Source: Amycolatopsis sp. cg9
GTDB taxonomy: Bacteria; Actinomycetota; Actinomycetes; Mycobacteriales; Pseudonocardiaceae
Length of the DNA: 64,000 nucleotides
Reading direction: 5' to 3'
Assembly (NCBI RefSeq): GCF_041346945.1
Contig: NZ_CP166850.1
Coordinates: 1,426,001 to 1,490,000 of the forward strand
The notes beneath the pieces were generated by a model. That model did no database searches. It worked only from the letters and a program-made list of their open reading frames with translations, and was not told the origin of the DNA. Below, in pieces: positions 26,490-45,988 of the stretch. The position numbers and the translations under genes were made by a program. Numbering within the stretch: the stretch's first letter is position 1; the number at the start of each line of letters is the position of its first letter.

Positions 26490-26562
26490 GCCCTCGTAGC
26501 TCAGGGGATAGAGCACCGCTCTCCTAAAGCGGGTGTCGCAGGTTCGAATCCTGCCGGGGGCA
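26490..26562 (+). tRNA. tRNA-Arg (anticodon CCT)
   Basis: The 73-base gene folds as a full cloverleaf. The acceptor GCCCTCG (26490-26496) pairs with CGGGGGC (26555-26561) with one G-U. The anticodon stem CCGCT/AGCGG encloses the loop CTCCTAA with anticodon CCT at 26523-26525. The T arm is GCAGG-TTCGAAT-CCTGC. The discriminator is A at 26562 and CCA is not encoded. It reads the rare AGG codon. A TAGGCT at 26469-26474 could be the -10 box. It marks the edge of the lower-GC island that begins just downstream. Confidence 0.95.
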
Positions 26563-26617
26563 CACGCAGTCTCGATACAAGAGTCGAAAGCCGGGCCGTC
26601 GCGATGACCCGACATCG

Positions 26618-26659: not shown

Positions 26660-28492
26660 TCAGACCGTCTGGGCGAAGTAGGCCAGACCCTCTGCCGTGG
26701 AATCGCCGACCAGAAGAGCTCGGTCGAGAAAGCAGTTGTTGTTTTCGCAACTGGTCTCGGGCAACAGCACACACGCATGGCAGGCCGCGAGGTTGACCCC
26801 GTCGACGCCGCTACTCTTCGACTCCATGCACAGCGGGTCGTTGGAACACCAGGAGGCTCTCAGCAACGCACCCCCCAATGTCTGCGTAAGCCGCTCGGGC
26901 TCACCCTGCGCCACCACCCCGCCGAGGCTGCCCGCTGAATCACTGGTCGCCGTGTAGATCAGGACGCCGGACATCTCGGAACCGGCGTAGATCCTTTCCC
27001 GCAGCGCGGAAGCCGGGTAGCCGCCGTCCAAGCTCCATTCGTTGATCAGGGCGTGCGCGAGAGTGTGGAGCAGCACGCGCCGCGCCGAGACGGGCGAAGT
27101 CACTTGGTCGACTGACTTCAGCGGGTCGAGCGCAGCTCGCTCGCGAAGCAACTTGAGGTGGTTGTCCCGAATGGTCGAGACCCGATCACGGACAGCATCA
27201 CGGGTTTCCCATCGACGGACCTCGTCCTCTTCCAAGCGGACGAAGACTCCCTCTCCGACCACTTCGATGGCGGGAAGCCACCTCAAGTCGGCTTTGCTCA
27301 ACGAAGCCTGGCGTGCATCGTCGGAGTTCTCTTCGGACGGCGTCCCACGGGTGAAGGCCGCGAGCGCCCGCACCTCGCGGAGTCGTTTGACCAACATGAC
27401 GCCGTCGACTTTGAACTCGCCGAGCGGATCGAGGCTTCCTTCCGGCGGCTCGCAGACGAACGACTGCAGACCGTCGTCGGGCCGCTCTCGACTACCGGCC
27501 ACCAGACTCCGGTATTCCTGCACACGAAGCGATGCCGAAGAAACGATTTCCACCTCGCCGCCGTTCGCTTCGCGCTCCCGCGCTGCCTTGAGTTCGGCAA
27601 CCACCCGGAGAACGTCGTCCGGAGTCGCATTCGCCTGCTGCAGCTTCGCGTGGTGGCTTTTGCAGAACCACAGCACGGCTTCGTCATGCGCGTCCGACAA
27701 CTTTTCCCGCTCCACGAGCGCGTGAACACCCTCACTGAACGGCGGAATGGAGAGAGCGCTACTCATGACCGGGTTCCAGACCGAAGAGGAACCACGTTGC
27801 ATCGTCCGCGGAGTTTGCTCGCACGGCGCAGGCTTGTCATCCTGCAACCACGGAGAACTTCCTGAGCAACGGATACCCAGCTCGCGCAACGCCTTGCGGC
27901 GGAAGGCACCTTCCATGGAAGCCCTCTCACCGCAACTGCACTCGATGACGATCGCCCTCAGCGAAGCCGACGCGCCTGCCGCCCTCAGTTCGAGCGAACC
28001 CTTGCAGAAACCCGAAGCCCCCTTGCCTCGGTGCACCCACTTCGAGTACGGGAAATCCTGGATGTGACCACCGTCGCAGGCGAGCACGAACCGCGACGGT
28101 ACCAGCAACTCGTCGCAGTCCCCACAGTTCGCCTTTTCCCCGGCGGTGTTGAAGTCACGAAACTTCTGCAACGCATGGCAACTCGGACAAGAGTAGTACT
28201 CGGGGAACCTCCGGACGCGAACACCGTCCTTGGCATTTTCCTGGTCCGGCGCGGGCGGCAGCCGGAACGAATCGACGCCCAGAAGCTGGGCGAGCCGCCG
28301 CTCGTGGATTTCCGGCGCCTCGGAGATGTTCCAGGAATCGAGTCCGGACACGATGAAGGACTCGTTGTCGACCGCGATGAGAGAACCGACCCCGTAGGTC
28401 GTGACGAGCTGCGACCTCCGGACGGAGCTCAGTTTGCGAGCCGCTCGCGACTTTCCGACGCCGCCGCGGCGGGCAGAACTTGTGTAACCCAT
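26660..28492 (-). CDS. drmB: DISARM-type DrmB protein (DUF1998)
   Basis: This is a 610-aa protein. The N-terminal part has RRSQLVTTYGVGSLIAV and Cys pairs (CPSC near residue 100, then CGDC), a likely zinc site. A second set is CSCG in the middle. The C-terminal DUF1998 domain (about 470-600) has LLHTLAHALINEWSLDGG, then IYTATSDSAGSLGG and the cysteine-rich end ACHACVLLPETSCENNNC. DrmB forms a complex with helicase DrmA in DISARM and is thought to help sense or hold phage DNA. The ATG at 28492 follows AGGAG by seven bases and lies ten bases after the drmA stop. The family call is strong; the role in this arrangement is inferred. Confidence 0.85.
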   Translation of the reverse strand: MGYTSSARRGGVGKSRAARKLSSVRRSQLVTTYGVGSLIAVDNESFIVSGLDSWNISEAPEIHERRLAQLLGVDSFRLPPAPDQENAKDGVRVRRFPEYYSCPSCHALQKFRDFNTAGEKANCGDCDELLVPSRFVLACDGGHIQDFPYSKWVHRGKGASGFCKGSLELRAAGASASLRAIVIECSCGERASMEGAFRRKALRELGIRCSGSSPWLQDDKPAPCEQTPRTMQRGSSSVWNPVMSSALSIPPFSEGVHALVEREKLSDAHDEAVLWFCKSHHAKLQQANATPDDVLRVVAELKAAREREANGGEVEIVSSASLRVQEYRSLVAGSRERPDDGLQSFVCEPPEGSLDPLGEFKVDGVMLVKRLREVRALAAFTRGTPSEENSDDARQASLSKADLRWLPAIEVVGEGVFVRLEEDEVRRWETRDAVRDRVSTIRDNHLKLLRERAALDPLKSVDQVTSPVSARRVLLHTLAHALINEWSLDGGYPASALRERIYAGSEMSGVLIYTATSDSAGSLGGVVAQGEPERLTQTLGGALLRASWCSNDPLCMESKSSGVDGVNLAACHACVLLPETSCENNNCFLDRALLVGDSTAEGLAYFAQTV

Positions 28493-28502
28493 CCCGTCAC
28501 TC

Positions 28503-31500
28503 CTACCGCTTGTTTTCGAGGAACAGCGTCGACTCGGCATCTACGTCCCGCAAGCTCCACAACGTGGGCTGACCGTCGCCAGGGCCGGCTTCGTCGGTGT
28601 CGAACCCGCTGAGCAAAGCCGGGGACTGAGAGCCCCGCTTCGCCTCGTACACGAGTTCCGGGTGGTCGTCCGCCATTTCCCGCCACCATTGCACGAATGC
28701 GTCTATCTGCTCCGCGACCGACTCCGCCTCCTGCCGTTCGACACCGGCCACGCGATCCAAGATCGCAGCGCGCACAGTCGCCTTCACCTCGCCGGCGAAC
28801 TTGTCGATCCGACCGGCATCACCGTTCCCGGCGAGCCCGGGGACCAACAGCCTCGACAACGCGACGACCACCGCGTGCAGACCTCGATCCCGAGCCCTCG
28901 CGGAGAACGGCGTGACGCTCGTCGACTCGACTTCCCGGTAGAGCGCGGAGTGGAAGGTGGGAAAGCTCTCGTAGTGCGAGCGATCCCTGGAACGCATGGA
29001 GTTCAACATCACGGTGACCAGACCGGGATGACGACGCCCGACCCGGCTGGTGGCCTGGATGTACTCCGCAGTCGTCTGCGGCTGGCCCATCACGGACATC
29101 AGACCGAGGCGGTCGATGTCCACACCGACCGAAATCATGTTCGTCGAGAGCAGAACGTCGAGCACCCTGTCTTCCGGCAACGCTCGCTCGATCATCTTCA
29201 GCAGCGCCGGGATCTTGGTGGAGTCCGCACGGCTGCTGAGGTCCTCGACCGAAAGATCGCCTCGTTTGCCGGAACCGTCGCGATCGGCCAACGCCTCCAA
29301 CCGGTCCTGAACGTCGTCGCGGACCTGGAGTTCAGCGGCCGAAAGCAGCCGGAGGCTGTTGAAGTAGCCGACGAGCGTCCAATAGGGATCGAGCACTTCG
29401 GGGCCCATCCCGCTTTCCCGAGCACGAACGACCTCGTGGAGCAGCGCCGCATAGGTGCGCACCAGCAGCGTGGTCTGGCTGGTGCTCGACGTCATCAACC
29501 CCACGTAGCGCCGAGAGGCCTTCTCCGACCGAGGCGTTTCGACCGCGAACCACGAGTCACGTGCATCCAAGCCCGCCGGGGGGAACTGGGACACACGACG
29601 GTCGAAGAGCGCGGCGACCTGGTCGGAAGCCCGCCTGATCGTTGCGGTGGACGCCACGATCTTCGGCCGATCGGCGAGTACGTCGATCGCCGTTTCGTAC
29701 AAGCCGGTCAACGTTCCGAGCGGCCCGGAGATGAGGTGGAGTTCGTCCTGGACGATGAGCTCGGGTGGCTTCACCCCGTCACGATCACGGTTGAACAGCG
29801 CCGCGGTGACCGGTCGCCACGGCAGCGAGGCGAATTTGTCCACCGTGGCGATGACGAGTGTCGGATGCCACTCGTAGACGGCCTGATCGACGACGTGCAC
29901 AGGAAGACCCGGCGCCGGGTAGAAGTCACAACGCGCATTGCGGCAGCGAACCGTCATGCGCACGTCAGCCTCCACGACTTCGTAGTCGTCCGCCGTGAGT
30001 ACGTCCCCGCACCAGGGGCAAGCGCGAAGCTGGACCGGGTTCTGGGTGCTCAACTGCTTCCCGCGACTCGATCGCAGCTGCTTCAGCGACTCGTTCGCGC
30101 TCTTGAGATCATTGGGCGTCGCGGATCGGCCGACCCACATGCCGATCGATATCGATGTCGAGCCGAGACGAGTCGGATCGTCGTTGCGGACCACTTCCAT
30201 CGCGCAGATCAGCGTGGCTGCGCGTTCGAACTGCTGAAGAGTGAGGAGACGAAGCGTGTACCGCATCAGGACGGTCACGCCGTCTCCTTGCTCGCCGTCA
30301 CGGAGACGTCGAAGAAACACGGTGAACGCGATCAGTCCGAGGTACGCCTCGGTCTTGCCGCCCCCCGTCGGGAACCACAACAAGTCGGCGACCGACCGGT
30401 CGTCATGACCCGGGTCGACGATGCCGGCGAGACACTGGAGCACGAAGGCGACCTGGAACGGCCGCCAACGTCCGGCGGCGAGATCGGGCTCGCCCTTGCG
30501 CCCGTCCTTGATCCACTGGGTCCGCGCCCGCTGCTCGGCCATGGCCTTGTTCGCCAGCCGGAAAGCCTCGAGAACCTCCGGCCGTGACTCGTCCGTGAGC
30601 AAGTCCAAGCCCACTCGCATCCGGACGAGCGCGCTCCGGCAATACTCGATCTGCTTTCGCGCAGCGCTGACGTGATCCTTCTCGGTAAGACCGGCGATGT
30701 CGACCTCACGGGCGTCGACCCAACCGGCATAACCGTCGAGCACCGAACGGAGGCGACGTCCGATCTCCTCGGCCGAGGCCCCACCGAGTCCGACCATGTC
30801 GAGCGCTCCGTCGTCGATGTCGCGGTTCGAGTCGGTGAGCAGGACCTCATGAGTCGGAATGAATTCGGTGCGCACGCTCGCCACCGCAGCGCGAGGCATC
30901 GGCCTGTACAGCTCCGGTGCCTGCCAATCCCAAGCGACCGAGCAACCGTGTCCCGTTGCGAACGACGGCACATGACGATGCAAAAGCCGGCTGAGTGCTT
31001 GCTCTTCGTCCACGGCGCCGCGAAGTGCCGGACGTTCGACGAAGGGTACGCTCCCGGCAGGGCCGGTGACCTCCAGAGCCGCTTGGAAGAAGCAGAAGGC
31101 GTCCTGGAGGTCGTACTCACCGCAAGTCAGCGTGTTCACCAACGTCACAGTCACCGAAACCACGCCATCCGCAGGTACCCGCACCAGCGCGCGCAGCGCC
31201 AGCCCATCCGGAAGACCGTCGACTTCGACCATCCCCGGAACGGTCGCATCGAGTTCGACGGGGGCGCAGTCGAGCGGCACCCGCCGCCATCGTTCACGTT
31301 GACCGTCCGTGCTCCTGGGCTCGCTGCGCTCGGCTCGCACGACGTTTCCCTCGGCGTCCTCCGGAACGTACCGCGCTCCGGCGACGGCGACGCGAAGCTT
31401 CGAGCAGACCCCGGTGTCGACCGAGAACGTCAACCCCATCGACGAGGGCTTCCGCTGGTTCGACAGCGCAACACCGAGGTCGATTTCGTCCCGGTCGGCG

Positions 31501-31730
31501 CCTTTGGCACCGGAGAGTTCCGGCACCTGGTCCACGCCGTCCTCCTCAACCGGATCCGGAACTTCGGTCGGCTTGCGCTGAGGGAACAGAGCACCGATCG
31601 GGTAGGCCGTGATCGGGGCGTCGGTGGTGAGAACCTCACGATCGCCGCCGTACGGTCCGAGAAGGTCCGCGCGCAGCGCAGAGCGCAGCTCGGCGCGGAG
31701 ACCGTAGTGTTCACCTCGTAGCGTCGTCAC
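28503..31730 (-). CDS. drmA: DISARM-type helicase DrmA
   Basis: This 1075-aa SF2-like helicase has a long N-terminal region (about 1-430). Its helicase core has Walker A FPTGGGKTEAYLG (about 453-465), motif II DELH in QDELHLISG (about 658-666) and motif VI YIQATSRVGRRHPG (about 880). A four-cysteine zinc element (CPWC and, later, CRNARC; about 571-605) sits inside the core. In DISARM, DrmA with DrmB binds and translocates on DNA. A GTG start at 31730 overlaps the preceding stop (GTGA). No drmC phospholipase-D gene is found in the window. Confidence 0.87.
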   Translation of the reverse strand: MTTLRGEHYGLRAELRSALRADLLGPYGGDREVLTTDAPITAYPIGALFPQRKPTEVPDPVEEDGVDQVPELSGAKGADRDEIDLGVALSNQRKPSSMGLTFSVDTGVCSKLRVAVAGARYVPEDAEGNVVRAERSEPRSTDGQRERWRRVPLDCAPVELDATVPGMVEVDGLPDGLALRALVRVPADGVVSVTVTLVNTLTCGEYDLQDAFCFFQAALEVTGPAGSVPFVERPALRGAVDEEQALSRLLHRHVPSFATGHGCSVAWDWQAPELYRPMPRAAVASVRTEFIPTHEVLLTDSNRDIDDGALDMVGLGGASAEEIGRRLRSVLDGYAGWVDAREVDIAGLTEKDHVSAARKQIEYCRSALVRMRVGLDLLTDESRPEVLEAFRLANKAMAEQRARTQWIKDGRKGEPDLAAGRWRPFQVAFVLQCLAGIVDPGHDDRSVADLLWFPTGGGKTEAYLGLIAFTVFLRRLRDGEQGDGVTVLMRYTLRLLTLQQFERAATLICAMEVVRNDDPTRLGSTSISIGMWVGRSATPNDLKSANESLKQLRSSRGKQLSTQNPVQLRACPWCGDVLTADDYEVVEADVRMTVRCRNARCDFYPAPGLPVHVVDQAVYEWHPTLVIATVDKFASLPWRPVTAALFNRDRDGVKPPELIVQDELHLISGPLGTLTGLYETAIDVLADRPKIVASTATIRRASDQVAALFDRRVSQFPPAGLDARDSWFAVETPRSEKASRRYVGLMTSSTSQTTLLVRTYAALLHEVVRARESGMGPEVLDPYWTLVGYFNSLRLLSAAELQVRDDVQDRLEALADRDGSGKRGDLSVEDLSSRADSTKIPALLKMIERALPEDRVLDVLLSTNMISVGVDIDRLGLMSVMGQPQTTAEYIQATSRVGRRHPGLVTVMLNSMRSRDRSHYESFPTFHSALYREVESTSVTPFSARARDRGLHAVVVALSRLLVPGLAGNGDAGRIDKFAGEVKATVRAAILDRVAGVERQEAESVAEQIDAFVQWWREMADDHPELVYEAKRGSQSPALLSGFDTDEAGPGDGQPTLWSLRDVDAESTLFLENKR

Positions 31731-33613
31731 TTTTCGACCGTTCCTTCCCTGTTCTCGTCGCCTGCACGCCACACGATCCGACCGAGTCCGCCGACACGGG
31801 GCGCCAACCACACGTCACCGCCTTCCCAGCCGACTTGTTCACCGACTCCCACGGCACCGACGACGGTCTGGACCGCGTCGATCTGCAGGCCTTCGATGGA
31901 GATCGGCCAAATGGTGCGCCCCTTTCCACCGAGCAGCTTCCAGAGGTCGCGGCGGAACGCCTGCGAGGCGTCGCCGATGCGAAAACCCTTGTGGAACAAG
32001 CCGTATTCCGGTGCTTCGTCGCCCGACATCGGCAAATCATGCAACTTTCGGAACTCCGCCGGATCCCCCTCGCGCACCTCCACCCGAAGGTACCGTTGGA
32101 TCGCAGACGGGGCCGCCCCATCGGAACAGGCCGGGCGAAGCTGCGCTACATCGAATTCGAGAACCTCGATCCCGGTGCGCTGGGGTTCTTTACGAGAAAT
32201 GTACCAACGCTCGACGCGTGACGGCAGAAACGACTTCTTCCGATACAGCCACGTCTGGGGAGCTTCCAGCCGGTAAAGGTCCAGCCGCGGCCTGGTCATG
32301 GCAACGTACAAGAGCCTTGCCGCAGCCTGGACGTCCTCGCCCGCCTTCTTGCTCTTCGGCCCATCCGGTCGGACGATGACCACACGGTCGAACTCCAGTC
32401 CTTTCGCCCGGTGGATGGTCGAGATCGTCAAGCGGTGTTCCGGCGGCGCAGTAAGGTCGTCCGGGAGACGTTCCTCGGCGATGCGCCTCCGCAACTCCGA
32501 CAGGTCAAGTCGGTTCCCTCGCGCACCTGCCACTCGACGCAGAGAGCGCCAAGCGCCGGACGGCGGACGAACCGCCAGGGGGTCGACCTCGTCGACGAAC
32601 TCGGCGAACCGGCTTTCGGTGATTTCCCCGTCGGCGAACGTTTCGAAGAGTCCGGCGAGCCACGGCGGCGCAAAGCGCTCCCTCGCTCCTCTCTTGACAC
32701 GATGGGGTATCGCATACTTGTCCAATTCACGGGACAACGCGAGCGCTTGCGCGTTGTCCTGGCAGAGGATTCCGGTGCTGCCCTCGACCTCACGCAGGGA
32801 AGCCTGGACGAAGCCGTCTTCGAGAGAACCGAAGGACGGGACCTGCGCCAAGAGATTCGTGAGTTCGCGTAGCAGGGACGCTGCTTCGTCGTCGGTTCGC
32901 ATTCGTTGGAGTCGTGGACCGGCACCCAGTGCGATTCGCGCCTCTGGCGTACGAGCACGGAAGTTCTCGTCGAGCGTGCACTCGACCAAGTCGTCCAGGA
33001 AGCTGCTGCGAAGCCAGTCGAAAAACCGTCCGGTCTCGCCTGCCCGCTCCTGCGGGTCGGCGATCTGGAACCCGTAGATCGACTGCGCGACATCGCCCAC
33101 CACAGTGAAGCCGGCCTCCCGAAACCGATCGAGGAGAGTCTCGACGAGATCGCGCCGAACACCTACCAGATCCTGGATCTCGTCCACGACGAGATGACGG
33201 GGCTCACCGCGTTCGGACTCCTCGAGCACTCCGCGCCCGATTGCCTCGACTGCCAGCGCAATCCGCCGGTCGAACCCGATCCCGCCGAGGTCGACGCGGT
33301 GCGGATCCTCCTGATGGAGAATCGACGTCGCCCAGCTGTCGAAAGTCTGGGCCCGTACCCGGCGGGCGGCCACGCCCGCCCGATCGAGTCTTTCGACGAT
33401 TTCGCGCACCGCGGCTCGTGAGAAGCTCAGCACCAGGATGTCCGCAGCCTGCAACTCCTCCTCTCGGATCAAGTGCTCGAGCCGGTGGATGAGCATGGTC
33501 GTCTTGCCGGCGCCCGCCCCCGCTCCCACGAGAACCTTGGCATCCCACGGCAGCTCCACGACCTCCCGCTGAGACGGGGTGAGGACGAGACGACTTTCTT
33601 CGGTCGTGATCAT
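31727..33613 (-). CDS. UvrD/PcrA-like SF1 helicase with extra C-terminal domain
   Basis: This 628-aa protein has a UvrD-type helicase core: Walker A GAGAGAGKT (residues 30-38), Walker B VVDEIQD (about 142-148), the Q-rich GDVAQSIYGFQ, the motif STIHRAKGLEFDRVVIV and the final LLYVAMTRPRLD. It is shorter than UvrD (about 720 aa). The last 170 residues are not helicase-like and contain a basic, Trp-rich part. The ATG at 33613 overlaps the previous stop (ATGA) and its own stop overlaps drmA. It may unwind or clear invading DNA in this complex; no nuclease motif is seen. Confidence 0.8.
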   Translation of the reverse strand: MITTEESRLVLTPSQREVVELPWDAKVLVGAGAGAGKTTMLIHRLEHLIREEELQAADILVLSFSRAAVREIVERLDRAGVAARRVRAQTFDSWATSILHQEDPHRVDLGGIGFDRRIALAVEAIGRGVLEESERGEPRHLVVDEIQDLVGVRRDLVETLLDRFREAGFTVVGDVAQSIYGFQIADPQERAGETGRFFDWLRSSFLDDLVECTLDENFRARTPEARIALGAGPRLQRMRTDDEAASLLRELTNLLAQVPSFGSLEDGFVQASLREVEGSTGILCQDNAQALALSRELDKYAIPHRVKRGARERFAPPWLAGLFETFADGEITESRFAEFVDEVDPLAVRPPSGAWRSLRRVAGARGNRLDLSELRRRIAEERLPDDLTAPPEHRLTISTIHRAKGLEFDRVVIVRPDGPKSKKAGEDVQAAARLLYVAMTRPRLDLYRLEAPQTWLYRKKSFLPSRVERWYISRKEPQRTGIEVLEFDVAQLRPACSDGAAPSAIQRYLRVEVREGDPAEFRKLHDLPMSGDEAPEYGLFHKGFRIGDASQAFRRDLWKLLGGKGRTIWPISIEGLQIDAVQTVVGAVGVGEQVGWEGGDVWLAPRVGGLGRIVWRAGDENREGTVEK

Positions 33614-36600: not shown

Positions 36601-38427
36601 CTCGGCGTCGGCATCACGGATACCGAGTTGATCCAGGGCGCGCTGGAGCGATACGTCGTCGGCCAGTTCACGGTGGACGTAGACGAGATCATCCCGGAGC
36701 CCGTCCTCGACCGTTCGGCGGAACACGCTCCCGGCGACGGGCGCGACGGCCCCGCCGTGTTCGGTGAGAACGATCTTCGCCCTCCGCGCATCTTCCGCGG
36801 CGGCCCGATCGTGGAGGTATTCCCCCTGCAACAGTGCGGCCAGGACCCTGAGCGCGGCGGCCGAACCCGCCGGTGTCCCGTCCGCCACCAGCGCTTCCAG
36901 CCACTCGCGAGTGGATGCGACTTCATGGCCGGCCGCGTCGAGGATGTGGCTGACCTTTCCCCGCCGTTCCCGCGACGCCTCTACGGAATGGTGGATCCAG
37001 TCGCGGGGCCTCCCGGGATGGCTCCGCCACAACTCCAGTGTCTTGGGATCGAGCTTCTCCGGGTGGACCCGCAGGTCCACGGGGCGACGCAACACACCGT
37101 CCTGGTCCGGCAGCGACGGTCGGGTCGCCGCCTCCTGCCAGATCCGACCGGTCAGGTAAGCGCACGCCCAGTTGGGTGATTCCTTCGACCGGCCGGGCAG
37201 GAGCGGCAGGTAGGCGGCCGGATCCTCGTCCACCACCAGCTTGCCGAGTGAAGCGACGACGAGGTCCGCAGCCACGCGCAAAAGCTCGTTGTTGAAGGCG
37301 CTCTGCAGCAGGTTCTGACGGTCTTCGTTGGTCTTCCACGCCGCGTTCAGCACGCCGCTGAGAGTCGTGGGGTATGTGGTGGGAAAGTACGCCCAAAAGG
37401 CGCCCCGATCGTTGGGGACCGTGTGAAGTGTCTGCCCCTGGGCGTTCGTCGTGACCCGGTAGTCCGGCACCGCCCAGGAAACGTCGATCGTCACCCTGTC
37501 GTGCAGCTCACCGGCCCCACGCCGGACTTCGTCCTCGACAGTGTGCGAGCGCGAGAAGACCCTGTGCTGTTCGGTGACGGCCTTGGCGCCACCACGCACC
37601 TCCCGAATGGTGCGCCTTTCGCCCGATCGAGCGACCACTATCTCGCGGCGCACCAACGGCATTCGCCTTCGGTCCTCCAGCACGACGGTGCCGACGTGCG
37701 ATGAGAAGACCTGGAATAGATGGGGGAACTCGCGGGACGGCTGGTCCGCCAGCCTGCTCCGCGGGGTTTGCTGGATGTCGTGTCCGAGTCCCTCTCCGGC
37801 CCCTCGGAGCAACGGCAGACGCACGACCGTCACCGCCCAGTCGAGCAGTTCGTGGAGCACCTGGTCGAGTCGACGTTCGACGGCGACGTCGAGGGGCTTC
37901 GCAAGTCTCAGCACCGGCGAGCTCTCGAGCGCGGACAGCGGCGGAAGGCCCTTTCCGACCCGCCCGTCGTTCACCGCATCGAGGATCCGCCCACGGGCCC
38001 AGTCGGCATCGAAACCGAAGGCCCCGGTCCTGCTGAAGAACTGCGGCGTCCGGGTGACCGACAAGACCGACTTGACGCCCACGCCGAACCGGCCGATCTG
38101 GCCGCCTCGCTTGCGTGAGACACCCATGCGCAAGATGGTCTCCGCGCCCTCCGGTGTGATAGGTCGACCTTCGTTCGCGCAGTACAGGTGGTCATCAGTG
38201 AGCACGACCTGGACGCGTCCTCCGGCGCTCTCGGGTTCACGCATTTCGTCGGCGGCGTTCTGCACCAGTTCGAAGATCTGCCGGTCGCTGTACCCACCTT
38301 GGTGGATTCGACGCTCGCCATTGGCGTCCTCCTCTACACGGCCTTCGCTGAGCGCATACGTACTCAGCGCGAGGTCGGTGAGCTCGGTGATCCTTCCGAG
38401 CACGGTTCCATCGAACGTGTCCACCAC
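33613..38427 (-). CDS. Hsp90/sacsin-type ATPase fused to SF2 helicase
   Basis: This giant protein (1604 aa from the start chosen) has a GHKL ATPase at its N-terminus: N box FELVQNAADEM (about 52-62), G1 DDHLYCANEG (about 78-87) and G2 GRFGVGVKS (112-120), as in Hsp90 and sacsin. About 1000 residues of uncharacterised sequence follow. The C-terminal third is an SF2 helicase: Walker A LPTGAGKTRVA (about 1230), VDEAHVAI (about 1335), GLTATPFR and MIGRGLRG. The start is a GTG at 38427 with GGGAG upstream, chosen because the family begins DTFDGTVLG. An earlier TTG at 38754 overlaps the promoter. It begins the four-gene defence transcript. Confidence 0.72.
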   Translation of the reverse strand: MVDTFDGTVLGRITELTDLALSTYALSEGRVEEDANGERRIHQGGYSDRQIFELVQNAADEMREPESAGGRVQVVLTDDHLYCANEGRPITPEGAETILRMGVSRKRGGQIGRFGVGVKSVLSVTRTPQFFSRTGAFGFDADWARGRILDAVNDGRVGKGLPPLSALESSPVLRLAKPLDVAVERRLDQVLHELLDWAVTVVRLPLLRGAGEGLGHDIQQTPRSRLADQPSREFPHLFQVFSSHVGTVVLEDRRRMPLVRREIVVARSGERRTIREVRGGAKAVTEQHRVFSRSHTVEDEVRRGAGELHDRVTIDVSWAVPDYRVTTNAQGQTLHTVPNDRGAFWAYFPTTYPTTLSGVLNAAWKTNEDRQNLLQSAFNNELLRVAADLVVASLGKLVVDEDPAAYLPLLPGRSKESPNWACAYLTGRIWQEAATRPSLPDQDGVLRRPVDLRVHPEKLDPKTLELWRSHPGRPRDWIHHSVEASRERRGKVSHILDAAGHEVASTREWLEALVADGTPAGSAAALRVLAALLQGEYLHDRAAAEDARRAKIVLTEHGGAVAPVAGSVFRRTVEDGLRDDLVYVHRELADDVSLQRALDQLGIRDADAEGRFRSVLDQGGFDDYTTESWTRFWELMRAAGRTSQVPAIRKAMPSVESTLKVRTVAGSWRPIGQCLLVGAVVPGDGSRDADVAIDPRFHVDDRGVLLDFGAVDLPARGHRPESEPWFDDYHAAVYKAFVSKLKPTDHRPALKTVKVEGGPIAGPMTIFLELSPEGRAAFLGAMPDEGLTESWTRQIGKSAATRVAVKSPIRWLLEKYGHVKTSKGVVRVAEAVSPELAAYRDVLPVAEISPRKAARLKLPSTVDQVRDAQWADLLAQVKQSDDDEFIGRTYALLVRAGCGLLGDEDSTRCRVGDRWELRADDEIAIAFNREELHELVKENHPALLIDRAEDRDDAEAMIADWGMRRVSDVISKRVRSVPAGSPVAVVDEYPPLRQRFGSRVNGLFLQRCAELEEVVHTPSGTRTTPLRSTLHDRTTVLVTDNASHETALSLADMEFGWKLGTDGCRSLLEAHRRQQQDLELNAKLDAVRQAKTVAEKISSLIAEEDLRSGLPNGLLESEVTESGREPDALRVAEMAYNAHGDGILRVHQKDLQARIPTAPARFDGEQAALRFVASLDLPDSFAGARIPAPPARVRAAGPVEFPRLHDYQEIIAARVSALLRSSTPRRAMLSLPTGAGKTRVAAEGVIRWIRDSGTPAGPILWIAQTGELCEQAVQSWKFVWEKVGPKSELVIDRLWHNNSATPVADRPHLVVATDAKLSSILGEDQNGWLRNASLVLVDEAHVAISKSYTAIFEKLGLTHRETARHLIGLTATPFRNNETTTERLVARFGNERLDDGVFEGEAIPALQRRGVLSAVEHRQLRGADLQLRPDELVGLKGDGQAAFLPKAAEQRLSEDQVRNKILLDEIASLPDDWPILVFATSVHHAKFLAAKLGDRGIRAVAIDSSTPLAERRKKIDDFRERRVRVITNYGVLSQGFDAPATRAVVIARPVYSANSYQQMIGRGLRGRLNGGKDGCLILDVRDNITNFSEALAFTDFEHLWQERQ

Positions 38428-38753
38428 CCGATTCGCTCCCAACGACGGCTGTGCGGCATTCGGAGAACGATCGCCGCTGCAGACCGGACTCCGAAATTCT
38501 TCGTGATCGATCACCGATTCACCACCATCGCCTCGCCCCGACGGCGTGTCAACCGGCTGTTGCTTTCGAATCGGACGTGCTGTATTCGCGCCAGCGAAGC
38601 TTCCCGACTCCCGACGCACCCGCTTCGGCTGCTTCGGACCGGGATCCGACCTCACCGGAGTCGAGATCGACTTCCTACGATCGATGAGGTCGCCGACCGG
38701 CCTGCAAGTGTTACGACCATCGTCCCGGCGAGTCGTGCGACGACAACGTGTCA
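38428..38753. other. Long leader region between the divergent defence transcripts
   Basis: About 325 bases lie between the predicted minus-strand promoter and the chosen start of the large ATPase-helicase. The minus-strand frame is open to 38754 (109 more residues), but that extension is Arg/Ser/Pro-rich and unlike a folded protein. A GTG with a ribosome-site-like GGTGGTG upstream (encoding VIDHEEF) is a possible earlier start. Otherwise I see nothing coded; it may be an untranslated leader. Confidence 0.4.
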
Positions 38754-38790
38754 ACTATAATTTGACATGGCTCATCACGTCAAATAGAAT
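38754..38790. promoter_or_regulatory. Divergent promoters with a perfect inverted-repeat operator
   Basis: On the plus strand TTGACA (38762-38767), 17 bases, TAGAAT (38785-38790) is a near-consensus promoter for the XRE-GHKL gene. On the minus strand TTGACG, 18 bases, TATAGT (38759-38754) faces the helicase transcript. The two overlap. ATTTGAC (38760-38766) and GTCAAAT (38779-38785) form a perfect inverted repeat spaced by 12 bases that covers both. The helix-turn-helix of the gene at 38842 is a likely ligand. The stretch is strikingly AT-rich for this genome. Confidence 0.75.
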
Positions 38791-38841
38791 CTGATATGCT
38801 GTAGTCGCAGGCTCCCCAACAGCGGATACAGGAGAAAGCCG

Positions 38842-40941
38842 ATGCCGGACGGACGCCCCGACAACGACTTCGGGCCCTGGCTCGCGCGCCAGTTGCGGCG
38901 TGCGGGGCTGAGTCAGGCCGAGCTTGCGGACCGACTGGACCTCACTCGGGCCGCCGTGTCGGCGTGGATCACCGGACGGGCCCAACCCCGCGAAGAAACG
39001 AAGCGGGCCATCGCCGAGGTCTTCGGCACCGACCCGGCCGTCGTCTACAACCGCACCGGCGACCTGGCGCCGATACTCCCCCGCGAGTGGTACCACCGGC
39101 CCGCCCACGCCGACGGCGGGCGTGAATACGGGAACGCTGCCGCTTTCGCCTTCGACGCCGACCTCTCGGTGCTGGCCAAAGAGGCCACCCAGAACTCCCT
39201 GGACGAAAGGCTCGACCGGGATCACGCCGTACGAGTCCGTTACATCCTGCACGAACTCACCGGAGAGCGACTGGACGCTTTTCTGCACAACATCCAGTGG
39301 GATCGACTGCAGCCGCATTACGAGCAGGCGGCGAGCGCCGATCAGAAGGTTTCGAAGAGCTTGCGCTCCGCGCTCGACGATCTGGCCACCACGAGCGCGC
39401 TGCGCCTGTTGCGAATCGACGACTACAACGCCTCGGGCCTGATCGGTCCCGAATACACAGACGGTCAGTTCGCGGCGGTGGTCCGACGCCAACTCGACAG
39501 CTTCAAGCAACAAGCGAGCCGGGCCGGCGGCTCCTACGGTCTCGGCAAGGCCACGTTGTGGGGGACGAGCCGGTTCGGGTTGGTGCTGATCAATTCGACC
39601 CTCTCCGAACCGTTCGAGGGGAGGACCGCTCGCAGGGTGGTAGGCAGGCTGGACCTACCGTGGCACACGATCGACGAACAGGCCTTCGCAGGTCCCGCGT
39701 GGTTCGGCGAGCTCGACACCGAACCCGCCCACCGCGGGACAGCCCGATCCTGGTGGGCGGATGACGAGACGGTTCGCGGTCTCCACCTCGATCGCCCCAA
39801 TGAGGACCCGGGTACCTCATTCCTCATCGTCGGTGCCCACGATGCGTCGGGAACCGCGGATACGCTTGCCGAGATGCACGACAAGCTCGTGCGGTCGTTG
39901 GCCAAGGACTTCTGGGCCGCCATGGTGTCGGGCACCGGCCGAGAGCCCATGCTTGAGGCGAGCGTGACGGCGCTCCACAACGGACAGACGGTGATCCCGG
40001 AGAAGCGCATCGATCCCCACGAGCACCACCCGGCTCTCAGCCGGGCGCTCGAAGCGTACCTGGACGGGGAAACGGTCGAGGAACTCACGGAACGCGACCA
40101 GGTGGCACAGGCGTCGGTGCCGCTGACTGTGGTGGCCAGGAAGACGGACGCCCGACGCAGCGCCGCGAACGTCGAGCACGAGGCCGTCCTCCTCGTCACT
40201 CCCGCCGGCGAGACCGATCAACAACAATTGAACCAAGTCGTTCTCATGCGAGGGAATCGGATGGCCGTGCGCGACCACCGCCCCCGGGAGGTGCCGCTCG
40301 GAGCCATGGCGTTCCAGGCCGTCCTGCTCGCCGGTTACGCAACAGGACGCGAAGGCGAGGAAGTCGAACTGGCCGAGCAGTTCTTGAGGGCTTCTGAACC
40401 GCCCGAGCACAACCGCTGGGGCAAGACCGAAGAATTGACCGCGACGTACGCCAGGGGTGCGCTGAGCAGGTTGGCCGACTTCCACCGGGCCATCGACGAG
40501 GCGATCCGCAGCATGGTCGGGAAGAGGGAGAGCACGCATCAGGCCGGCCCCGCCCTGCTTCGAGAACTTTTGAAGTTCGACAGTCCGGCAACAGGAACTC
40601 GTCGGAACCAGCCCATTCCGACGGTACGCGCCGTCACTGCCACGATCGGTGACGACGGCGCGTGGAACGTCGGCGTTTCGCTCAAACTTCCCGCCGTCGA
40701 AGATCCGTGGTCCTTGACCCCGGTCGCGAAGTTCGACGTCCGCTCGGGCAGCAAACCGGACGTGCCCTGGCGGCTCGTCTCCGCGGAGAACTGCCGGATC
40801 GAGGGTGCGAACCTGATGATCGAGCCGGGGGTGCGGTCGGCGGCCTTCACCGCCGTCACGGATCCGACCCGACACCCGGTTCCCAGCTCGATGTCCCGTC
40901 TGGTCGTGGACGTCCAGAGGACGCGAGGAGGTGCAGCGTGA
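38842..40941 (+). CDS. XRE helix-turn-helix fused to MORC/MutL-like GHKL ATPase
   Basis: This 699-aa protein starts with an XRE-type helix-turn-helix (residues 14-65; GLSQAELADRLDLTRAAVSAW). It then has a GHKL ATPase: N box KEATQNSLDER (113-123), G1 RIDDYNASGLIG (191-202) and G2 GGSYGLGKATLW (229-240). The remaining 450 residues are beta-rich and match no domain I know. Such MORC/MutL-type ATPases occur in restriction-modification operons (Iyer, Abhiman and Aravind). A promoter with an inverted repeat lies 50 bases upstream and GGAGA precedes the ATG, so it may bind its own promoter and sense DNA. It is the first gene of a three-gene operon. Confidence 0.75.
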   Translation: MPDGRPDNDFGPWLARQLRRAGLSQAELADRLDLTRAAVSAWITGRAQPREETKRAIAEVFGTDPAVVYNRTGDLAPILPREWYHRPAHADGGREYGNAAAFAFDADLSVLAKEATQNSLDERLDRDHAVRVRYILHELTGERLDAFLHNIQWDRLQPHYEQAASADQKVSKSLRSALDDLATTSALRLLRIDDYNASGLIGPEYTDGQFAAVVRRQLDSFKQQASRAGGSYGLGKATLWGTSRFGLVLINSTLSEPFEGRTARRVVGRLDLPWHTIDEQAFAGPAWFGELDTEPAHRGTARSWWADDETVRGLHLDRPNEDPGTSFLIVGAHDASGTADTLAEMHDKLVRSLAKDFWAAMVSGTGREPMLEASVTALHNGQTVIPEKRIDPHEHHPALSRALEAYLDGETVEELTERDQVAQASVPLTVVARKTDARRSAANVEHEAVLLVTPAGETDQQQLNQVVLMRGNRMAVRDHRPREVPLGAMAFQAVLLAGYATGREGEEVELAEQFLRASEPPEHNRWGKTEELTATYARGALSRLADFHRAIDEAIRSMVGKRESTHQAGPALLRELLKFDSPATGTRRNQPIPTVRAVTATIGDDGAWNVGVSLKLPAVEDPWSLTPVAKFDVRSGSKPDVPWRLVSAENCRIEGANLMIEPGVRSAAFTAVTDPTRHPVPSSMSRLVVDVQRTRGGAA

Positions 40942-41918
40942 TCACCGTCTTCCCCTATCGAACGGTGTTCGGCGACGTCGACATGGAGGTCTCGGCTGTC
41001 ACGGTGGACGGCGCGTCGCTGCCCTACTCCCGGATATCGAAAACGGAACGGACCGTGGCGCTGCACCAATCGGGCAAGGAGCACTGGCACACGGCCACCT
41101 TGCGCCTCGACGCGAGATTGCCGGACGAGGAGATCGCCGCCGGGCCATGGGAGGACGTCCGGTGCATGGCGGTGGTGACCGAAAAGGCCACCAACACCAG
41201 GATCGTCACCCGCTTGGCGGAACAGGGCACCGGTCTCTACCACGGATCCGTCGAGCTGGCCCGGTCCGCTCACCTGAACCGAGCGACAGTCGGTCTCGCG
41301 GTCGTCGGCACGGTCGACGGGATAGCCGGTCGGCTCATCGGAAGTGCCGACCGGAACTGGTACGTCGATCTGCAGTCCGCCACCCCGGTCCGGCAACGTG
41401 AGATCGACATCGTCGAAGTCGACTTCCGCGACGGTCCCGAGGCATGGCTGCGTCCGTTCAAGGATGCGCCTTGGCTGGTCGACACGTCCGGCGAGATTCC
41501 GACAGTCCTGATCAACACCTCGGCCATCGAAGGGTTCACGGACATCCTCGGCGGCACCGGCGGAACGGCGGGAGAAAAGGCGCTGCGCGAGACGATGAGC
41601 AGCCAGATCGCCCAGGACGCTTGGACCGCGATGTTCCAAGCAGCCATCAGCGACCTGGAACTGGACGAGGACGGAACGCCTCAGCTTCCCGGCGGCTGGC
41701 GCGGATCTGTTCTCGCTTCGATGTTGCCCGACGTCTTCCCCACCCTCACGCCGACGGACGCGCTCTACGAGATCGACCAACGTCGGAAGCTGGGGTTCAG
41801 CTGGTCGGAGATGCAGACTCGCATGCAGTACGCGGCCGGGAAGCGCAGCCAGGTCACCAAGCGGCTGGCCACGGCCATTCGATCCGTCCGCCGCGCGACC
41901 GACATGGGAGAACGATGA
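40938..41918 (+). CDS. Unrecognised 326-aa partner of the GHKL ATPase
   Basis: I do not recognise a family. The first 200 residues look beta-rich (many Val/Thr strands such as TVFGDVDMEVSAVTVDG) and the last 110 are helical and basic, ending KRLATAIRSVRRATD. No nuclease motif such as PD-(D/E)xK is clear. It starts at the GTG at 40938, overlapping the ATPase stop (GTGA), and ends overlapping the next start, so all three are translationally coupled. As the least explained protein of the system it is a candidate effector or DNA-binding subunit. Confidence 0.6.
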   Translation: MITVFPYRTVFGDVDMEVSAVTVDGASLPYSRISKTERTVALHQSGKEHWHTATLRLDARLPDEEIAAGPWEDVRCMAVVTEKATNTRIVTRLAEQGTGLYHGSVELARSAHLNRATVGLAVVGTVDGIAGRLIGSADRNWYVDLQSATPVRQREIDIVEVDFRDGPEAWLRPFKDAPWLVDTSGEIPTVLINTSAIEGFTDILGGTGGTAGEKALRETMSSQIAQDAWTAMFQAAISDLELDEDGTPQLPGGWRGSVLASMLPDVFPTLTPTDALYEIDQRRKLGFSWSEMQTRMQYAAGKRSQVTKRLATAIRSVRRATDMGER

Positions 41919-42796
41919 CCGGCCCCCTCGCGTTCGAAGCACCGCCGGCACTCGGCTTGCTGTCGAACTCCGCTGTCGCGGCCCACCTCGGCCGTGGTGT
42001 CCAGGCCGGCGACGAGGTGCCCCCACAGATCGCACTGAGCAAGGCAGTGACTGCTCTGCCCGAGAGTGCCCGGTGGCGGACAGAACCCCTTCGCGAGCTC
42101 TTCGACGAAGCGATGCAGCGCTTCCAACACCGGAAGACAGCAGCCGACGGGTGGTTGGCTCCTCGGCTGCACGCCACTCTGCGGATGAGCCGGTCCGAGG
42201 CCGCCCGAGGCGAACTGTGGAACTTCATCGCTCTTCTGGTGGCTCCGGACTATGTGGTTTGGCGCCACCGGGGCACGGAGATCGCACCGGCATCCCGCTT
42301 CAGCGGCTTGCACTACACCCAAGCGTTCGCACGACTGTGGTGGGTGGCCGAGCTCTTCCGCAACGGCGAAGACTACCGCCCGGTCGAGACGGCGTGCCGC
42401 GTCCAGGAAATCTTCAACAGCACGATGAGGCTGGACGTCGTTGACCACCGACCGACTGCGCTGACCGTGGTCCGCATCCTGCAAAACATGGTCGAGACCG
42501 GTGCACCACGCCCAGGCGATCATCTCCACGCGCTTTCGTCCGCGATCAACCTCGCGGGAAGTACGCTCGTCTTCGAGGCGCTGGCCTCCGACCCCGGACC
42601 TGATCCCGAAGGGACCCAGGCTTGGATCGAAGGGGCGGTAAGCGCGGCGCCGGTTCCCCTGGATCGCCTGCCCGACGGTCCGGACGACGGGTCCGTGGCC
42701 GAGTCCGGCATTCAGGCGCTGCTACCCCTGTTCGAGCAGCTCGGAAAGGACGCGAACATCCGCGTCCGAACGAAGCACGAGGAAGAAGCCCCCTAG
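41915..42796 (+). CDS. DUF6339-like protein of the MORC/methyltransferase locus
   Basis: This 293-aa helical protein has DGWLAPRLHATLRMSRSEAARGELWNF, split over residues 75-105, and ALLVAPDYVVWRHRG and LWWVAELFRNGEDY after it. From memory this pattern fits DUF6339, a family found beside DNA cytosine methyltransferases and GHKL/Z1 restriction-type operons. Its biochemical role is unknown. It is coupled to the 326-aa gene by an ATGA overlap, and its stop shares CTAG (42793-42796) with the convergent methyltransferase. Confidence 0.6.
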   Translation: MTGPLAFEAPPALGLLSNSAVAAHLGRGVQAGDEVPPQIALSKAVTALPESARWRTEPLRELFDEAMQRFQHRKTAADGWLAPRLHATLRMSRSEAARGELWNFIALLVAPDYVVWRHRGTEIAPASRFSGLHYTQAFARLWWVAELFRNGEDYRPVETACRVQEIFNSTMRLDVVDHRPTALTVVRILQNMVETGAPRPGDHLHALSSAINLAGSTLVFEALASDPGPDPEGTQAWIEGAVSAAPVPLDRLPDGPDDGSVAESGIQALLPLFEQLGKDANIRVRTKHEEEAP

Positions 42797-43911
42797 TCGA
42801 CGTCCCGTCCCGTGTCGGCTCCCTCGGTCGCCACCGGACGGGACTCGTCGAAGTCCTGCCAGGTGCCGCGAACCGCATCGTCGAGACGTCGGGGATCAAT
42901 CACGAGGCCGAGCGCCGTCGCCAGGACGTGAGCCGCCAACCGCGGCGGAATGGCGTTACCCACCTGTTGTGACACGTCCTTGCCGGACCACGGGTAGTCA
43001 CGGGGGAAAGTCTGCAGTCGGCCTGCGTCCCAGGGATCGAGGCGCGCGAGGTTTTTTCCGTCGGGTGTCTCGAGGCGGTTGCGGGACACCTTCCCCGTCA
43101 CGGTCGCCGCCGGCTCGTCGGAATGGCGGCGCCCACGAGCCTTCGGGTCGCCCCCGGTTCCGTAGTTCGAGACGACCACAAAGTCGTCCGTGCGGTCGAG
43201 CGCCTCGCCCATGGTCACCCAAAGAGGTAAGTCGTCCGCTCCCGCACGCGGCGCGCTCCCCCTCCGAAAGCGGCGGTGGGTCGCTTTCGGCAACCGGGGC
43301 TTTTCGGTCGCGCCGAACCGGGCGATCAGAATCGCCCGACGCCGGGTCTGCGGAACGCCGTACGCTTCCGTGTGCAGGATGCCCGAGGTGGTTTTGTAAC
43401 CGATCCCCTCGAGCGCTTCCTCCACCGCCTCCCAGACCGGCAACACCGCGGGTACCTGTTCGAGTACGACCGTCCGGTACGGACGCCCCAGGTGGTTGGC
43501 TCGCAGCGCCCAACGCAGCGGCTCCAGCACCAGCGCGGTCCGCTCGTCCTCCAGCGTCTTCAGCTCCGACCGGACGTCCTCTCCGGCCGCCATCCTCTTG
43601 ACGAACCCGAGCACTTGGTCGAGAGCGCGGCGGCCTGCGCCACCGCCCGCGACGGTGTAGGTCTGACACGGCGGACCGCCGGTGAGGATCGTTGCAGCGG
43701 GAAAGTCCTCAGGTCCCAGGTCACGGACATCGGCTTGGTGGGTTCTCAGCCCAGCGGCACGGCGGGTCGCGCACGCCCCCGCGTCCCATTCGACACCGTC
43801 GGCGACGATGCCCAGCCAGTGAGCAGCGACGTCGAGGCCACCCGGGCCCGCAAACAGGTCGACGAGGTGTGGGCGCTCGCCGAAGTCGAGTTCCTGTTGC
43901 CGGGAGGTCAT
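42793..43911 (-). CDS. DNA (cytosine-5) methyltransferase, intact
   Basis: This 372-aa 5-methylcytosine methyltransferase has all main motifs: I DLFAGPGGLD (18-27), IV GGPPCQTYTVAG with catalytic C82, VI VLEQVPAVLP (the usual ENV is EQV), VIII QTRRRAILIARF, IX RLQTFPRDYPW and X QVGNAIPPRLA. The target-recognition region is between VIII and IX (about 220-270). The sequence recognised cannot be told. It would mark self DNA for the island, as DrmMII does in class 2 DISARM. It converges on the DUF6339-like gene and lies 50 bases downstream of the second methyltransferase-like gene. Confidence 0.9.
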   Translation of the reverse strand: MTSRQQELDFGERPHLVDLFAGPGGLDVAAHWLGIVADGVEWDAGACATRRAAGLRTHQADVRDLGPEDFPAATILTGGPPCQTYTVAGGGAGRRALDQVLGFVKRMAAGEDVRSELKTLEDERTALVLEPLRWALRANHLGRPYRTVVLEQVPAVLPVWEAVEEALEGIGYKTTSGILHTEAYGVPQTRRRAILIARFGATEKPRLPKATHRRFRRGSAPRAGADDLPLWVTMGEALDRTDDFVVVSNYGTGGDPKARGRRHSDEPAATVTGKVSRNRLETPDGKNLARLDPWDAGRLQTFPRDYPWSGKDVSQQVGNAIPPRLAAHVLATALGLVIDPRRLDDAVRGTWQDFDESRPVATEGADTGRDVD

Positions 43912-43961
43912 GGCGGGTCAGTCTATAGAGCCGCATCCGACGCCGGGGCTAGGCGCTCCGA

Positions 43962-44972
43962 TCACGCGAGAGCCTTCCGCAAAGCCATTCCCAGCGCTCG
44001 CGCGACAGGCGGTGGCGAGGCGTTGCCGACCTGCCGATAGCGAGCCGTCTTCCGACCGGCGAACCGCCAATCCGGCGGGAAGCCCTGGAGACGCGCCGTC
44101 TGCTCCACGGTCAGCCTGACGAGCTGTGATCGTTCGAGGTCAGGACGCCACCGGTAGCCGGGGCCCGGTACCTCGTCGGCCAGTGAACCACCGTTGACGC
44201 CCATGCGCTGCCAAGCCGCCTTCGTACCCGAAGGTCCCAGATCACCGCCTCCGCGGTTCCACGATCCGCCCACCAGCGTCGGGGCCAGCCGATCGGCGTG
44301 AGCGGCCCACTCGGCCGCTTGGGGCCATCCCCGCGCTCCCATGGATTCGCCAAGCGCGTCGCCGACTGTGACCGGCGGTTCCAACACGCGGGCAGGCTCT
44401 TCGAAGGCATCCATCCGATCGCCCTTGAGCGCGACGAAGATTCCCTGACGCCGGTCCTGCGGCACTCGGTGGTCCGCAGCATTGAGGACGAACCAGCGAC
44501 CGTGGTAGCCGAGATGCTCCACCTCTGCCATCACGAAGTCACGCGTCGGCTGGTACCTGTCCCGATCGGCCAGTTCTGCCATGTTCTCCAGCAGCAGCGC
44601 CTTCGGCTGCACGGCATGCATGAGCATGATCGTCGCTCGGATCAAAGCGATTTCGACTTCGCTGTCGGCTGGGCCGTTCACGGACGCTGCCGCCGGCACT
44701 CGAGGCAGCCCTGCCGAAAGCAGGTCGATGTCGTAAACCTGTTGGTCGTGCACCGGATCGAATTCGAGAAGATCGACACGGCGGACGTCCCAGTCCGGTC
44801 GATTCAGGTTCAACGTGTCACACGCTACTTCTCGGTTGTCGATCAGCAGCAAAGGATCGAAACCCGCTTGCTCGAGTCCGAGTGCCAGGCCACCCGCCCC
44901 GGCGCAGACATCCAGGAAGCCGAAACGACGGTCCCCGTGATGCGCGCGTCCCTGATCACCGTCGGTATCCAC
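43962..44972 (-). CDS. Dcm-like protein lacking the catalytic cysteine
   Basis: This 336-aa protein has most of a cytosine-5 methyltransferase: motif I DVCAGAGGLALG (21-32), motif VI LLLENMAELAD, motif VIII PQDRRQGIFVAL, RLQGFPPDW and motif X QVGNASPPPVARALG. But motif IV reads SAGLPRVPAAAS, so Arg91 stands where the catalytic Cys of PCQ should be. It should therefore bind SAM and DNA but not methylate by the usual mechanism. It may be a subunit of the intact enzyme or a sensor of methylation. The GTG at 44972, with GAGGGG before it, is chosen among several open starts. Confidence 0.75.
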   Translation of the reverse strand: MDTDGDQGRAHHGDRRFGFLDVCAGAGGLALGLEQAGFDPLLLIDNREVACDTLNLNRPDWDVRRVDLLEFDPVHDQQVYDIDLLSAGLPRVPAAASVNGPADSEVEIALIRATIMLMHAVQPKALLLENMAELADRDRYQPTRDFVMAEVEHLGYHGRWFVLNAADHRVPQDRRQGIFVALKGDRMDAFEEPARVLEPPVTVGDALGESMGARGWPQAAEWAAHADRLAPTLVGGSWNRGGGDLGPSGTKAAWQRMGVNGGSLADEVPGPGYRWRPDLERSQLVRLTVEQTARLQGFPPDWRFAGRKTARYRQVGNASPPPVARALGMALRKALA

Positions 44973-45076: not shown

Positions 45077-45988
45077 TCAGGACCACCGAGCCCCGTACGC
45101 CAGGCCTGGGGTGAGGCGCTGGAAGCGCAGGTGGATCTCCCCCGACGAGTCGACCTCGTGCGGACGACCGCGGTAGGCCGGGTCCGACACGTCCCGCTGG
45201 AACGCTCCCTCCAGTACCCGGACCTCCGGCCGGCCGCCGAAGCGGACGCGCAGGTCGAACGACTCGCACGGCTGGCGAGGGACGCACACCATGTGCGGGT
45301 GCAACGCCGAAGGCGACGTCAGCTGGAACAGCACCGAGGATTCCCAGGACTCTCCTCGAGACAACGGACGCGGCAAGGAGAGGGCGAAGCCCCAGCGATC
45401 CGATGCCTCCATTCCGCGGTCCACCAGACGTCCGCCGTAAAGGACTGTCGCCGATACGTCGCGGCGGCCCGCGGGGAGTGAAACCGCCAGGTCCAGGGAC
45501 GTGAGACCATCACGGTCGGCCACGATTCGGCGTTGCTCGAGGACCAGCGGAGCCTCTTGGTCGAGCACCATAGAGACCGAAAGTGACGTTGTGTGCCAGC
45601 TGTCGGGGGACGGCGTAGCCGACGGCGAAGACGAAGCCAGCTCCGCCAGGACCTCGATCGCCTCGTCCACCCGCCGCCGGACTGTCCGCGGGTCTCGGTC
45701 CAGGAGGGAAGCCGCCCAGCGGACCCGATCCTGGTACAGCGGCTGGCGGGCCTCCGACGAGATCGCGAAGGCCGCCAGCGCCGCTACGCGGAGGTCCTCC
45801 GGGAGGTGCGAAGCCAGCGAAGACAGCCGGCCCGAGACCTTCTCGCGGATCGCCACCATGCCGTCGTCCGCCGACACCGCGCAGGCCGTTCGCAAAGATG
45901 GGCCCACGCGGTCCTCCACCCGGCCCGCCAGGCCGCGGCCCTTGCGCAGGGTCTTCAGCTCCTGGATCAGCTCCGCGCGCTCCACCAT
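45077..45988 (-). CDS. Conserved actinobacterial protein of unknown function (303 aa)
   Basis: The protein starts MVERAELIQELKTLRKGRGLAG and has RVGPSLRTACAV, then a helical stretch with DRVRWAASLLDRDPRTVRRRVDEAI, which looks like a helix-turn-helix. A beta-rich half from about residue 130 begins HTTSLSVSMVLD and holds RRIVADRDGL. Proteins of this type are common in actinomycetes and are not characterised. It is 40 bases downstream of the VWA gene, probably co-transcribed. Its helix-turn-helix-like part hints at a DNA-associated or regulatory role; I cannot say more. Confidence 0.7.
   Translation of the reverse strand: MVERAELIQELKTLRKGRGLAGRVEDRVGPSLRTACAVSADDGMVAIREKVSGRLSSLASHLPEDLRVAALAAFAISSEARQPLYQDRVRWAASLLDRDPRTVRRRVDEAIEVLAELASSSPSATPSPDSWHTTSLSVSMVLDQEAPLVLEQRRIVADRDGLTSLDLAVSLPAGRRDVSATVLYGGRLVDRGMEASDRWGFALSLPRPLSRGESWESSVLFQLTSPSALHPHMVCVPRQPCESFDLRVRFGGRPEVRVLEGAFQRDVSDPAYRGRPHEVDSSGEIHLRFQRLTPGLAYGARWS

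Follow-up and report, generated by a model that had tools for sequence, protein, structure and literature searches.

A chromosomal insert of Amycolatopsis sp. cg9 joins DISARM DrmAB helicases to an exchangeable GHKL ATPase module and a methyltransferase homolog without catalytic cysteine

In a 64,000-nucleotide stretch of the 10.6 Mb genome of Amycolatopsis sp. cg9 (the window), a helicase arm carrying the DISARM genes drmA and drmB stands back to back with a trio of genes headed by a GHKL ATPase, next to two cytosine-methyltransferase-like genes. Do these genes form one anti-phage system or neighbouring ones? On balance, we lean modestly towards a single methylation-gated, restriction-modification (RM)-like anti-phage system made of two portable modules. 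A preliminary description of the locus had proposed that DrmA, DrmB, a UvrD-like helicase and a giant protein in overlapping frames are divergent from XRE-GHKL, an unknown gene and a DUF6339 gene, and both the reading frames and the family matches confirmed this arrangement (Table 1).

The helicase arm comprises four minus-strand genes with overlapping frames. DrmB and DrmA scored above their NCBIfam cut-offs (NF038324, 490.5 bits, cut-off 240; NF038325, 1005.6 bits, cut-off 950) and matched chains B and A of PDB 7s9v (E 2.9e-83 and 7.5e-170), with DrmA aligning to the solved Serratia DrmA over residues 11-649 and 653-1070. If the last alignment columns are gap-free, V1063 of DrmA, as counted back from the alignment end, would stand opposite V1296, a residue proposed to sense methylation. 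The giant protein, here called sacHel, combines an N-terminal sacsin/Hsp90-type GHKL ATPase (NF047352, 67.5 bits, cut-off 50; PADLOC TmtA, 122.5 bits) with a C-terminal RadD-like SF2 helicase (NF053632, 109 bits, under its cut-off of 720), and PADLOC restriction-enzyme matches to sacHel lie on this helicase region. Because the homologs listed are mostly ~1600 amino acids (aa) long, a length of 1604 aa was adopted and the 1713-aa open frame rejected. In the opposite arm, XRE-GHKL appears paraMORC-like from its context and motifs, and EATQNSLDE, DDYNAxGL and GGSYGLGK are conserved in its alignment; ATP-binding motifs are kept in the alignments of XRE-GHKL, sacHel, DrmA and UvrD. The second trio protein, u326, had no Pfam, PADLOC or NCBIfam match at E <=0.1 (AF2 model with pLDDT 85.7 and pTM 0.58) and was found in 65/65 XRE-GHKL loci. 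The DUF6339 protein was modelled by AF2 as nearly all-helical (pLDDT 91.8, pTM 0.90) and has many invariant charged residues among 39 sequences.

Both arms lie in one insert. GC content is 0.64-0.68 across 26-46 kb and ~0.69-0.75 in the rest of the window, and the fall begins at a tRNA-Arg(CCT) gene, directly 3' of which the insert starts. Left-flank homology to relatives stops at 26563 (G429, L120), 26548 (L121) or 26361 (L122). In the relative G417, the match to window position 26361 is followed after 34 bp by a match to 45083, with no tRNA gene within the 20 kb retrieved. G429 agrees with the left flank as far as 26563 and then carries a different island, close to whose far side lies a 46-bp copy of the tRNA 3' end; flank homology resumes at 45083. 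Because the same tRNA-Arg holds a different island in this close relative, the site is suggested to be an insertion hot spot. The breakpoints in G417 and G429 delimit an insert of ~18.5 kb, which is therefore filled by nine genes and nothing else, u303 and the next gene being chromosomal. Accordingly, u303 and a vWA gene were rejected as system members: both are kept in G429, whose site holds the other island, and flank homology resumes at 45083 in the compared relatives that show the right flank.

The composite is not a one-off, as it recurs in other genomes. The preliminary description had raised the possibility that the arms stand apart as a rule in relatives; each does occur alone, sacHel without XRE-GHKL in 9/17 genomes and XRE-GHKL without sacHel in 6/14, but wherever one sampled genome contained both they were adjacent (8/8, match edges 415-1496 bp apart). 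The arms were divergent in 42 of 43 loci (exception L076), and a full or partial helicase arm without the GHKL trio was present in L039-L043 and L055-L058. The ATPase module coupled to the helicase set moves independently of it, and the modules are exchanged. The proposal of a distinct anti-phage system is partly borne out, as regards a recurrent combination, whereas its anti-phage function is what we infer.

The trio also reaches beyond actinobacteria. Plasmid records with an XRE-GHKL homolog (E <1e-30) numbered three, all haloarchaeal, and no homolog was detected in phages at E <1e-10. In the plasmids of Halomicrobium urmianum and Halobaculum magnesiiphilum (L159, L160), a u326-like and a DUF6339 gene come after the GHKL gene (profile scores for GHKL, u326 and DUF6339 of 201.6/247.7, 28.1/20.2 and 83.7/78.3 bits, respectively; u326 is the weakest link). 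The same stretch encodes DrmC, DrmB, DrmA and DrmE, and each plasmid has a cytosine methyltransferase matching PADLOC DrmMII (863.5 and 339.1 bits) with an APCQ motif, which completes the class 2 DISARM set. Around the GHKL match of the third record, from Halobacterium sp. DL1, the annotation lists neither DISARM nor DUF6339. The two examples show that the link between trio and DISARM is not limited to actinobacteria, and suggest that the trio is an overlooked DISARM neighbour in archaea.

Two cytosine-methyltransferase genes had been announced, and they lie on the strand opposite to the trio; both products match PF00145, yet only Dcm1 is intact. Its GGPPCQ motif is retained in 47/47 aligned homologs, and among PADLOC models it fits MTase_II best (305 bits, against 66 bits for the best DrmMII model). 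In Dcm2, the catalytic Cys of motif IV is replaced by Arg (AGLPRV), and this Cys is absent in 53/53 and in 120/120 homologs (the 120 being 119 Arg and one Gln). Dcm2 is thus predicted to be catalytically dead, and a role as second active methylase was rejected since the residue is missing in all close relatives examined. Dcm2 may read DNA instead of marking it.

Between the arms lies a palindrome, whose halves include the -35-like hexamers for a pair of promoter-like sites that point away from each other. It is present at the XRE-GHKL promoter in 50/65 loci (<=2 mismatches). In G089 (L036:3-2627), sigma-70 regions 2, 3 and 4 are encoded in-frame upstream of XRE-GHKL (PADLOC MzaA, 126 bits), and G252 (L033+) has a stretch matching this fusion upstream of its XRE-GHKL.

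In the mechanism we favour, Dcm1 would put 5-methylcytosine on host DNA, and a front end of XRE-GHKL, u326, DUF6339 and the pseudo-methyltransferase Dcm2 would detect DNA without this mark. Because Dcm2 has S-adenosylmethionine- and base-contacting motifs and no catalytic Cys, it could hold a target cytosine and leave it unmethylated. The GHKL ATPase would be a clamp or switch on DNA that is gated by ATP, and the front end would license a back end, at this locus DrmAB with the UvrD-like and sacsin-GHKL/RadD-like helicases. These might load onto phage DNA, unwind it and block it, possibly aided by a nuclease of the host. Through the palindrome, the XRE domain would regulate its own operon and, at this locus, might also control the back end. 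The order of these events, from unmethylated DNA to a block of phage replication, is likewise one we infer.

Several observations weigh against such a single system. As already stated in the preliminary description, the nine genes show no nuclease; no nuclease family was found among the ten proteins scanned (Pfam, NCBIfam). In 13/65 XRE-GHKL loci, no Dcm2 of at least 250 bits was present in the retrieved stretch, one of these strains having its Dcm2 beyond DrmB (L047+ versus L110). Since 7/65 front-end loci had no known back end in the retrieved flanks, the trio plus a Dcm may be a complete system alone. The sacHel frame of G118 contains a TGA, and its DrmA lies ~29 kb off; the correlation between the arms is partly due to host phylogeny; and no repeat of the tRNA 3' end, which would mark the right border of the insert, was found in the window. 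Shared control of the two arms is not a general feature: the left-pointing promoter at the palindrome was not enriched with sacHel (7/34 versus 1/15, p = 0.41), so that of the earlier claim of one locus under shared control, the single insert with adjacent, divergent arms stands and shared control is not the rule. The palindrome itself is missing at two mismatches from 15/65 loci, including both sigma-fusion loci, where the stretch scanned falls inside the fused gene, and its consensus was derived from 28 of the same 65 loci, so the shuffle comparison is not independent.

Alternatively, Dcm2 may pair with Dcm1, as a regulatory or specificity subunit that forms a heterodimer with it and is required for methylation rather than sensing. 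DNMT3L serves DNMT3A as such a partner. We rate this alternative slightly above the others considered, if still as rather unlikely. Of 16 XRE-GHKL loci whose Dcm is distantly similar (40-70 bits, of the GGPPCQGFS type), 14 retain Dcm2, which is therefore not tied to one Dcm1, although a flexible partner would still be compatible with this pattern.

Two independent defence systems, a DISARM-like sacHel-UvrD-DrmAB set and the GHKL trio, each with a Dcm, could also sit side by side in a defence island. Whereas the solitary occurrences of each arm fit this explanation, as do four sacHel-only loci (L040-L043) with their own GGPPCQ Dcm and a Vsr-like gene nearby, co-occurring arms are adjacent throughout the genomes sampled and nearly always divergent, the insert contains nothing besides the arms and Dcm genes, and the window has just one Dcm pair for both; we consider it improbable. 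That XRE-GHKL is chiefly a transcription factor, sensing infection and switching the arms on with no clamp on phage DNA, would agree with its XRE domain, the palindrome at its own promoter and the two sigma-70 fusions, but appears doubtful to us.

The single methylation-gated system would differ from the known ones to which it was compared. Like class 2 DISARM (DrmE, DrmA, DrmB, DrmC, DrmMII), which adjoins the homologous trio in the haloarchaeal plasmids, the window has DrmA and DrmB above curated cut-offs and a 5-methylcytosine methyltransferase; unlike it, neither DrmC nor DrmE was found, and in their stead stand two other helicases (UvrD-like; sacsin-GHKL/RadD-like), the trio and a putatively dead Dcm. 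PADLOC requires DrmC, a PLD nuclease, for DISARM types I and II, according to PMC9252829. The absence of DrmC noted earlier was upheld, with no PLD family in the ten proteins scanned (Pfam) and no DrmC among the PADLOC matches listed; DrmE was likewise absent from these proteins (NCBIfam; PADLOC, best 25 matches for UvrD, sacHel and both Dcm), and class 1 DrmD and DrmMI were not among the best 25 PADLOC matches per protein. PF10593 was absent from the ten proteins, and from the whole genome at E 0.001. Likeness to the PADLOC candidate PDC-M33 is weak and partial, through XRE-GHKL (PDC-M33A) and DUF6339 (PDC-M33C, 20.7 bits), and u326 has no PADLOC match; no literature on DUF6339 or PDC-M33 was found. 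Tiamat (TmtA) is a single-gene system that shares the sacsin-like GHKL region of sacHel, which adds a RadD-like helicase and operon partners. The TmtA match is not full-length (residues 122-565 of the 1713-aa frame versus 13-416 of the 1538 of the model). ARMADA (PMC12458937) also pairs a YprA-family helicase with a methyltransferase and has a GajB-like helicase in type II, but its helicase is fused to OB-CON-DUF1998 and accompanied by BrxHII-like and PglX-like genes, whereas DrmB is a separate gene in the window and the methylase is of the C5-cytosine type. No PglX was among the PADLOC matches listed, the best BrxH match (20.8 bits) was to sacHel, and GHKL, sacsin, Hsp90, MORC and cytosine are mentioned 0 times in the text of PMC12458937. 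The stress-sensitive RM systems CglI/NgoAVII similarly have a C5 methyltransferase acting with a translocating ATPase (PMC4267653). Neither the gene set nor a dead Dcm partner was described in the literature searched, which mostly excluded subscription papers and hence is no proof of novelty.

Table 1 Features of the insert and its borders (window positions)
Feature	Position	Strand	Evidence or remark
tRNA-Arg (CCT)	26490..26563	+	ARAGORN; insert starts directly 3'
DrmB (DUF1998/MZB), 626 aa from first ATG	26660..28540	-	NF038324; PDB 7s9v
DrmA helicase, 1075 aa	28503..31730	-	NF038325; PDB 7s9v; GTG start overlaps UvrD stop
UvrD/GajB-like SF1 helicase, 628 aa	31727..33613	-	PF00580, 101.5 bits; PADLOC GajB, 98.4 bits
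sacHel, 1604 aa	33613..38427	-	NF047352, TmtA, RadD; open frame runs on to 38754
Palindrome TTTGACA-N10-CGTCAAA	38761..38784		1 mismatch to TTTGACA-N10-TGTCAAA
XRE-GHKL (XRE helix-turn-helix, GHKL ATPase), 699 aa	38842..40941	+	PF01381, 41.9 bits; PADLOC PDC-M33A, 71.7 bits
u326	40938..41918	+	Predicted N-terminal beta sandwich, C-terminal helices
DUF6339 protein, 293 aa	41915..42796	+	PF19866, 38.8 bits (cut-off 23.2)
Dcm1, C5-cytosine methyltransferase	42793..43911	-	PF00145, 87.5 bits; intact GGPPCQ motif IV
Dcm2, C5-methyltransferase homolog, 336 aa per database protein	43962..44972	-	PF00145, 129 bits
u303	45077-45988		Outside insert, chromosomal

The closest named records for the window are from Amycolatopsis, and XRE-GHKL is 98% identical to its counterpart in Amycolatopsis sp. 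RTGN1. In Amycolatopsis sp. 2-2 (L079), a u303 homolog adjoins the Dcm2 of that strain. Just beyond the insert, window positions 46771-49662 encode a BTAD/NB-ARC/TPR regulator, which is ordinary for actinobacteria.
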